In this document: positions 1,783 through 5,477 of the stretch, in pieces
Position numbering within the stretch: position 1 is the first letter of the stretch
Layout: each line of letters begins with the position of its first letter
Notes under the pieces: model-generated
Database searches by the model: none
Told to the model about the DNA's origin: nothing
The model's input: the letters and a program-made list of their open reading frames with translations, nothing else
NCBI GenBank assembly: GCA_024655825.1
Contig: JANLFJ010000020.1
Coordinates: 1 to 56,996, forward strand
Origin: Peptococcaceae bacterium
GTDB taxonomy: Bacteria; Bacillota; Peptococcia; DRI-13; PHAD01
Direction: 5' to 3'
Length of the DNA stretch: 56,996 nt
Made by a program: the position numbers and the translations under genes

Positions 1783-1938
1783 TTAGCGGATTTTTACCCA
1801 TGTCCGAAAGTTTTTTTGCTGCTGCTCCTGATGGTATAAAATGGCGCACTCTTCGTCGCAGAGTGAAAGAACCGTATCATTAATCACCAGCTCGAAGGCA
1901 TGGCCGTTAAGGGGGTTGCCGCAGTATGCGCACACCAT
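1783..1938 (-). CDS. 51-residue Cys-rich mini-protein, TRASH/zinc-ribbon-like
   Basis: A short gene with ATG at 1938, stop TAA at 1785-1783 and a strong GGGAGGAGG Shine-Dalgarno. The product has Cys3-x2-Cys6 and Cys27-x3-Cys31, with 20 residues between Cys6 and Cys27. That spacing resembles the TRASH/YHS metal-binding motif, so it probably binds Zn or another metal. The C-terminal 20 residues are polar with a Gln run and end in basic residues. It lies directly downstream of the lysine riboswitch and its terminator, and a second terminator follows, so it is apparently the sole target of that switch. The function is unknown; it is not a lysine biosynthesis enzyme or transporter that I recognise. 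Confidence 0.75.
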   Translation of the reverse strand: MVCAYCGNPLNGHAFELVINDTVLSLCDEECAILYHQEQQQKNFRTWVKIR

Positions 1939-1966
1939 AAATACCTCCTCCCTTATAATGTGGGAA

Positions 1967-1997
1967 ACAAGAAAAGCTTCAAGGAACTGAAGCTTTT
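1967..1997 (-). terminator. Expression-platform terminator of the lysine riboswitch
   Basis: AAAAGCTTCA (from 1997) pairs perfectly with TGAAGCTTTT around a six-base loop, then CTTGTTT on the minus strand. It lies 28 bases after the closing P1 strand of the riboswitch and about 30 bases before the mini-protein start, as expected for lysine-induced termination. Confidence 0.85.
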
Positions 1998-2024
1998 AAG
2001 CGCCACACGTCCCTCCTTTCTCCT

Positions 2025-2206
2025 GTGAGATAGCGCTCCACCAGGACGCACGGAGTATGCCCCTGGTGACAGTCCTGCACCTGTTCGATGCAGTCCCAGC
2101 CTCCGCAACTCGGGCTTGCAGGGCTTCGGCGGTGGCTCCTTTTTCTGCCCTTCATTGTTTCCCGGACTCAGGACAGTTACTCATAGACACCGCGCCTCTA
2201 CCTCAC
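2025..2206 (-). promoter_or_regulatory. Lysine riboswitch (L-box)
   Basis: Read on the minus strand, the region has the L-box order: GTGAGGTAGAGGCGCG, then AGTAAC, GCCGAAG, GGCTGGGACTGC, GTCACC and finally GGAGCGCTATCTCAC. The P1 strands (2198-2206 and 2025-2033) pair over nine bases with one G-U. A second ACCTCAC copy at 2219-2225 on the 5' side could compete with P1. Known members switch off lysine biosynthesis or transport genes when lysine is abundant. Here the downstream gene is a 51-residue Cys protein. Confidence 0.9.
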
Positions 2207-2357: not shown

Positions 2358-2383
2358 TAAACAGTAAAGATAATTGAATAATG

Positions 2384-2467
2384 CTAGGGGTGCCTGTTAT
2401 TAGGCTGAGAAGGACTGATCCTAACCCTTTGAACCTGATGTGGTTAGTACCACCGTAGGGAAGCGAA
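2384..2467 (+). promoter_or_regulatory. TPP (THI-box) riboswitch
   Basis: Shows the conserved TPP aptamer segments in order: GGGGTGCC, GGCTGAGA, ACCCTTTGAACCTGAT, GGTTAGTACC and CGTAGGGAAGC. It precedes thiSGH-thiE, so binding of thiamin pyrophosphate should lower expression of thiazole and thiamin phosphate synthesis. Confidence 0.97.
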
Positions 2468-2490
2468 CGCGGGAGTTTTCCGCATTATCC

Positions 2491-4685: not shown

Positions 4686-4832
4686 ATGAATCGTTTTCAA
4701 AATTCGCTGGCTGCTTTTATCGGCTGTGAACGGCTGGAAAAAATCCAAGCGGCCAGGATAGGCATTGCCGGGGCCGGCGGGCTGGGTTCCAACTGCGCCG
4801 TTAATTTCGTCCGCAGCGGTTTTATAAATATT
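4686..4832 (+). pseudogene. thiF: 5' remnant of thiF fused in frame to thiE
   Basis: The first ~49 codons encode the unmistakable start of ThiF/MoeB-type adenylyltransferases: an N-terminal helix followed by RIGIAGAGGLGSN (residues 24-36) and FVRSGF. The sequence then leaves the family abruptly. The ATP-binding Arg, Lys and Asp, the Cys pairs for zinc and the catalytic Cys that should follow are absent. The reading frame continues without a stop into ThiE. A deletion joining thiF and thiE explains this best; the piece cannot be an active adenylyltransferase. Confidence 0.85.
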
Positions 4833-5477
4833 ATGCCCAGGAAAAAAGCTTTTCCGGCTGCCGGCCTGTACTGCCTGACATCGCAGGAGCATTCGCTCGG
4901 CCGGAGCAATATTGAAGTGGTAAAAGAGATGGTGGAAGCCGGCGTAAAGGTCATCCAGTACAGGGAAAAAGACAAGAAGATGAGGGAAAAATTGAACGAG
5001 TGCCGAGAGATAAGGGAATTGACGAGAAGGGCCGGGGTGGTTTTTATCGTGAACGATGATATTGACCTCGCCATGCTGGTGAAGGCCGACGGGATACATC
5101 TGGGACAGGAAGACATCCCGCTGGCCGAAGCCCGCAAGCTGGCAGGGGAGGGAATGATCATCGGGGTGTCCACCCACTCGCCCCGGCAAGCGCAGGAAGC
5201 TGCTGCCGGCGGGGCAGATTATATCGGGGTGGGGCCGCTTTTCGAGACCAAGACGAAGAAGGATGTATGCCCGCCTGTCGGGCTGGAGTATTTGGACTAT
5301 GTCGTCAAGAACATCGGTATCCCTTTCGTGGCCATCGGAGGCATCAAAGAACAAAACGTCGCCGAGGTCGTAAGCAGAGGGGCCAGGTGCGTGGCCATGG
5401 TAACCGAAATAGTGGGCGCAAGGGACATAAAACAAAAAATCGCCAGCATACAAAAATTGCTGCCGGCGGGAAGCTGA
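4686..5477 (+). CDS. thiE: Thiamin phosphate synthase ThiE with ThiF-derived N-terminus
   Basis: Joins hydroxymethylpyrimidine diphosphate and thiazole phosphate to thiamin phosphate. Residues ~50-263 are a full ThiE barrel: LYCLTS first strand, VKVIQYREK, NDDIDLAM...DGIHLGQED, IGVSTHS, ADYIGVGP with FETKTKKD, and VAIGGI near the end. Residues 1-49 are the start of ThiF. The open frame starts at ATG 4686; the internal ATG at 4833 could be the original thiE start but has no clear Shine-Dalgarno, so the product is probably the 263-residue fusion. Last gene of the TPP operon. The junction could in principle be an assembly collapse. Confidence 0.9.
   Translation: MNRFQNSLAAFIGCERLEKIQAARIGIAGAGGLGSNCAVNFVRSGFINIMPRKKAFPAAGLYCLTSQEHSLGRSNIEVVKEMVEAGVKVIQYREKDKKMREKLNECREIRELTRRAGVVFIVNDDIDLAMLVKADGIHLGQEDIPLAEARKLAGEGMIIGVSTHSPRQAQEAAAGGADYIGVGPLFETKTKKDVCPPVGLEYLDYVVKNIGIPFVAIGGIKEQNVAEVVSRGARCVAMVTEIVGARDIKQKIASIQKLLPAGS

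Follow-up and report, generated by a model that had tools for sequence, protein, structure and literature searches.

Lysine riboswitches are well studied, and the targets described for them are genes of lysine synthesis or transport. LysW, a zinc protein linked to lysine in another way, is the amino-group carrier of the AAA lysine pathway, and its substrates are carried on the C-terminal Glu of the EDWGE motif. Single "hypothetical" genes have been reported behind lysine riboswitches and argued to encode membrane transporters (PMC5584792). Here we analyzed a 56,996-nucleotide stretch of a Peptococcaceae bacterium (contig JANLFJ010000020.1, referred to as the window), in which a lysine riboswitch is followed by a gene for a 51-residue Cys protein. 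An earlier note on this DNA had taken such a target to be undescribed, and the open-access papers searched do not contradict it: among them, none was found that describes a Cys mini-protein behind a lysine riboswitch. As far as searched, the mini-protein is a real, conserved, and new type of target for a known riboswitch. We consider it probable that the locus is a one-gene lysine-responsive unit whose Cys4 treble-clef product binds a partner in the response to lysine shortage.

The lysine riboswitch and its transcription unit

A covariance scan of the minus strand (cmscan, RF00168) placed a full-length lysine riboswitch aptamer (L-box) at positions 2023 to 2208, with 116.6 bits where the gathering score is 30 (E = 1.6e-30, model positions 1 to 182); the aptamers of five relatives score 116 to 130 bits. 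The P1 stem, read from the sequence, has 9 bp formed by GTGAGGTAG (2206 to 2198) and CTATCTCAC (2033 to 2025), including one G-U pair. The intrinsic terminator of the expression platform lies at 1997 to 1972 and consists of the hairpin AAAAGCTTCAGTTCCTTGAAGCTTTT (11 pairs, 4-nt loop) followed by CTTGTTT; a leader terminator with a T-run is present between aptamer and mini-gene in all six genomes that carry the mini-gene (the carriers). In each of the six leaders, the 3' strand of P1 and the purine tract behind it could alternatively pair into the terminator, the antiterminator duplex being predicted at -22.2 kcal/mol for the window and at -14 to -21 kcal/mol for the relatives. Because unconstrained minimum-energy folding of the isolated region prefers the terminator form in three of the six leaders, the window included, the modeled antiterminator is possible but not clearly favored in energy. 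The score above the gathering threshold, together with a platform terminator for which the 3' strand of P1 has a predicted alternative pairing, confirms at the sequence level that 2023 to 2208 is a lysine riboswitch.

Sequence inspection and a script located a candidate promoter of sigma-A type on the same strand, with TTGATA (2266 to 2261) and TATAAT (2245 to 2240) separated by 15 nt and 11 of 12 positions matching the consensus. The stock promoter scan considers spacers of 16 to 18 nt only, and the pair is therefore unlisted there; a promoter for the unit at 2266 to 2240 is plausible, and the promoter-like AT-rich matches in the other carriers reach just 8 or 9 of 12. The mini-gene itself starts with an ATG at 1938 and runs to 1783 (51 codons for amino acids), preceded by the Shine-Dalgarno sequence GGGAGGAGG at 1952 to 1944; a GGAGG-type Shine-Dalgarno sequence is found in all six carriers. 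Because a terminator with a 15-bp stem, a loop, and a T-rich tail stands directly after the gene (approximately 1770 to 1730), the unit appears monocistronic.

An additional element, TACCTCAC at 2226 to 2219 on the minus strand, is complementary to the 5' strand of P1. This arm, TACCTCA[C/T] or a wobble version of it, occurs just upstream of the aptamer in six of six carriers, where its duplex with the P1 5' strand is predicted at -12.7 to -16.1 kcal/mol, values reached by at most 1.5% of shuffles. It also precedes most biosynthetic L-boxes of the class: the arm duplex is -10.7 kcal/mol or better in about 57 of 78 class leaders (equaled by at most 1.5% of shuffles), most of the others have none, and absence is found mainly before the riboswitches of transporters, the second type of lysA, and ddh. 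One family has an apparently matched variant, GCCTTGTCT with AGATAGGGT. These patterns suggest that the upstream arm forms a hairpin competing with P1 (anti-P1) in the expression switch; a limited literature search on this point found no description of an upstream anti-P1 arm.

Under the interval 1783 to 2206, the earlier note had described an L-box aptamer whose P1 has 9 bp, together with a perfect terminator hairpin and a promoter, all pointing to a small Cys-x2-Cys...Cys-x3-Cys gene with a strong Shine-Dalgarno sequence, and a second terminator following the gene. The aptamer, both hairpins, and the gene were all confirmed, with the amendments that the aptamer reaches 2208 and the conserved arm falls outside the interval; its promoter is found as a near-consensus pair outside the list of the stock scan and is plausible rather than shown.

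A TPP riboswitch (2376 to 2478, plus strand, 78.7 bits) begins some 170 nt away from the lysine riboswitch, which is on the other strand, and precedes an apparent thiamine synthesis cluster with thiS, thiG, thiH, and thiE-like frames. At the start of the thiE-like frame (4686 to 5477, plus strand), a short segment resembling MoeB/ThiF, IGIAGAGGLGSNCAVNFVRSGF, runs straight into thiamine-phosphate synthase-like sequence, as if thiF had been deleted or both had been fused.

Conservation of the pairing and the lysine regulon of the class

The mini-protein was searched in 150 related genomes and in 398 genomes phylum-wide, and a profile of it was run against all 46 class genomes in the set. Six of the 46, belonging to five genera, encode it (G000, which is the window genome, G002, G003, G010, G031, and G038), with profile E values of 1e-28 to 1e-31 and 41 to 63% identity to the window protein. 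The earlier note had proposed to look for the protein behind L-boxes in relatives, and there the frame proved conserved: in every carrier the gene shares its strand with a lysine riboswitch, and its start codon lies 83 to 93 nt behind the aptamer. The carriers form a small set of Clostridia-like bacteria that are uncultured, and the named relatives are all metagenome-assembled genomes labeled Clostridia or Clostridiaceae (JAHDQS010000005.1, JAHDSQ010000015.1, LADT01000092.1 [BRH_c20a], and JASKKI010000004.1). The mini-protein is rare, since a scan of 84,980 species with one short peptide pattern yielded only these four further named genomes; searches of plasmids and of viral contigs found no relatives. 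Weak phylum-wide matches (E = 7e-4 to 0.01) covered the profile partially, had no lysine riboswitch nearby, and were taken as chance.

When 78 lysine aptamers of the class were placed in a tree, those of the six mini-genes formed one clade (support 0.945), and its subgroups, G003 with G010 and G031 with G038, mirror those of the proteins. The units of G000, G002, G003, and G010 adjoin a nicotinate phosphoribosyltransferase gene, and those of G031 and G038 lie at another type of locus, near an AbrB-type membrane protein gene. Because the six aptamers form one clade while the flanking genes differ, sensor and mini-gene appear to share a history and to have travelled together; chance adjacency of the two is ruled out by the six-of-six co-occurrence and the monophyly of the aptamers. 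No conserved neighbor or fusion hinting at a partner of the mini-protein was found among the carriers.

The 46 genomes contain 79 lysine riboswitches, whose targets were read from the first downstream frame, one by one by eye, with ten representatives compared with NCBIfam and some with Pfam. Sixty-nine of them were read as preceding dap, asd, lysA, ddh, or lysine-transporter genes: the biosynthetic targets are dapB (30), lysA (17), asd (5), dapA (4), and diaminopimelate dehydrogenase (3), and the transporters are of the NhaC type (5) or have ABC-binding proteins (5). The remainder comprises six mini-proteins, a hydrogenase operon (2), a disrupted duplicate (1), and a contig end (1). With the three other lysine riboswitches of the window genome preceding dapB, asd, and lysA, and with such targets prevailing elsewhere, the mini-protein is an addition to a lysine regulon that is ordinary in other respects, and we read it as the sole recurrent non-lysine target in the class, apart from the doubtful hydrogenase case.

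In that case, the riboswitches L112 (360-1273) and L113 (G016:C31:16059, G014:C65:13252), both of which have a terminator of their own, are situated about 200 to 300 nt upstream of an [FeFe] hydrogenase operon that includes NuoE/NuoF-like subunits; their control of the operon is doubtful because a conserved promoter-like pair stands just before it. L114 (G002:C1:2181450-2181633), a second lysine riboswitch near that of dapA, is followed by a terminator and a group II intron-like sequence and looks like a disrupted duplicate.

A place in the lysine regulon is also what would be expected if the mini-protein specifically regulated lysine/DAP-pathway enzymes or lysine transport, which is a narrow version of the explanation we prefer. 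A transporter under a lysine riboswitch is found in none of the six carriers, compared with 9 of 33 other L-box genomes (P = 0.30, not significant), and kamA-like aminomutase genes (PF12544) are found in all six, compared with 15 of 40 (P = 0.006, uncorrected for kinship or genome size). However, kinship and genome size confound these associations where they are not simply weak, a lysine exporter of the PF03956 type is absent from the carriers, and co-occurrence with PF03956, PF12544, and NhaC-type PF03553 in the class genomes gave no clean correlate and named no partner. We regard so specific a role as rather unlikely.

The mini-protein and its coding frame

The window protein has a treble-clef-like CX2C-X20-CX3C arrangement (Cys 3, 6, 27, and 31), and the alignment of the six members contains 14 invariant columns, including C3, C6, C27, C31, Q39, Q40, F44, T46, and W47. 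No Pfam or NCBIfam model matches the mini-protein above its curated cut-off, and no family of lysine synthesis or transport is matched in either collection. An AlphaFold2 model of medium confidence (pLDDT 68, pTM 0.38) has two strands (residues 15 to 19 and 22 to 27) and a helix (29 to 42), with Cys 27 and Cys 31 placed at the helix start. Foldseek with this model returned nothing below E = 1 (best E = 1.1), and the VIA-align fold comparison gave Z values of at most 3.8, its top rows being scattered zinc-binding and other folds that give no guide to function. The TRASH models PF08394 and PF24273 give no match to the window protein at E values up to 1; across the family, TRASH models reach E = 0.0036 to 0.011 in one or two of the six members, under the curated cut-off, and the DUF2116 probable treble clef (PF09889) scores 15.4 bits with the window protein, below its cut-off of 26.8. 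The term "TRASH-like" used in the earlier note is fair as a description of the fold, but neither TRASH nor any other model exceeds its cut-off. A Cys4 treble clef, with eL24/TRASH as the nearest shape, is a reasonable, if tentative, reading.

The resemblance to eL24 raises the alternative that the mini-protein is a ribosome- or RNA-associated treble clef adjusting translation in lysine shortage. Among solved structures (PDB), archaeal eL24 gives the best matches to the profile (E = 0.0015, Cys part only), PF01246 (L24e) matches two of the six members (best E = 0.013, under the curated cut-off), and NCBIfam L24e matches three of six weakly. However, NF034186 (L24e) scores only 14.6 bits with the window protein against a cut-off of 73, treble clefs occur in numerous proteins that are unrelated to one another, and eL24 does not stand out in the fold comparison, all of which makes a role of this kind improbable. 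The wider proposal, a partner-binding product made in lysine shortage, accords with composition: the six members have 0 to 3 Lys per 51 to 57 residues, and such a lysine-poor product suits expression when lysine is short.

The next same-strand gene of the window, about 130 nt past the mini-gene stop, encodes an FlK-type thioesterase (1652 to 1221), and were it the true target, the small frame would be a leader peptide or passenger. This is very improbable, as the 15-bp terminator separates the two genes, a terminator-like hairpin follows soon past the mini-gene stop in the other five carriers too, and the thioesterase occupies that place in the window genome alone; the next gene is convergent in G002, G003, and G010, and in G031 a same-strand DUF3870 gene comes next but past a terminator. 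Read-through to the thioesterase was rejected because of the terminators and the non-conserved neighbors. Conservation of the frame and read-through were the two refutation tests that the earlier note had named beforehand for the mini-gene as target; both were run, and neither refuted it.

Equally hard to credit is a short lysine-regulated transcript acting as a regulatory RNA with an incidental frame; the whole unit is indeed a short isolated transcript bounded by terminators, but the strong Shine-Dalgarno sequence and the invariant Cys pairs in frame speak for translation, and changes cluster at third codon positions (first/second/third, 12/4/26 for G031/G038 and 14/10/30 for G000/G002). With dN/dS of about 0.06 for G031/G038 (dN 0.16, dS 2.7) and dN of 0.04 against dS of 0.16 for G003/G010, the substitution pattern indicates that the mini-protein frame is under purifying selection.

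Proposed mechanism and comparison with known systems

Our model of a one-gene lysine-responsive unit builds on the aptamer, the hairpins, the conserved gene and gene order, and the purifying selection, all evident in the sequences. From established L-box behavior, we infer that the unit is OFF with lysine and ON without it. When lysine is plentiful, the aptamer would close P1, the leader terminator would form, and transcription would stop; when lysine is scarce, the 3' strand of P1 and the purine tract would pair into the terminator and transcription would continue, and pairing of the upstream arm with the P1 5' strand may favor the ON fold. The read-on transcript would be translated from the strong Shine-Dalgarno sequence into the 51-residue protein, which is predicted to fold as a Cys4 zinc treble clef with a zinc knuckle, a β-hairpin, and a helix, and which, through its conserved Gln-rich helix and F-x-TW tail, probably binds a protein or RNA partner in lysine shortage. 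The Cys spacing points to metal (zinc) binding, and the invariant Gln/Trp tail points to partner binding as an adaptor. More tentatively, the mini-protein might serve this class as a small effector dedicated to the response to lysine shortage, a metal-binding adaptor made only at low lysine. The small-protein target is conserved, monocistronic, and passed on together with a riboswitch lineage of its own, which suggests that an RNA sensing lysine is able to drive an effector of this small kind; if true, such a dedicated role goes beyond the synthesis and import functions that make up the repertoire of lysine riboswitches, and lysine control provides a testable handle on an otherwise unannotated protein family.

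The mini-protein shares with eL24/TRASH/FCS-type treble clefs the CX2C and CX3C pairs separated by about 20 residues, the YCG knuckle, and the modeled hairpin and helix; it differs in the Gln-rich helix end and the F-x-TW tail, which extend beyond the matched stretch, and in matches below curated cut-offs. Like LysW, it is small, has Cys pairs, and is linked to lysine, but its tail reads T-W-[VI]..., an EDWGE-type motif occurs in none of the six tails, and, unlike the AAA pathway setting of LysW, its carriers have L-box-controlled DAP pathway genes. The cases of PMC5584792 likewise have a lysine riboswitch before one uncharacterized gene, whereas the gene here encodes a 51- to 57-residue Cys protein without a transporter match. 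The window L-box resembles the canonical one (RF00168) in its full aptamer, 9-bp P1, terminator before the gene, and an alternative partner for the P1 3' strand; it departs from it in the extra upstream arm, which is complementary to the P1 5' strand, and in its target, which is a stand-alone Cys mini-protein instead of a downstream lysine synthesis or transport gene.
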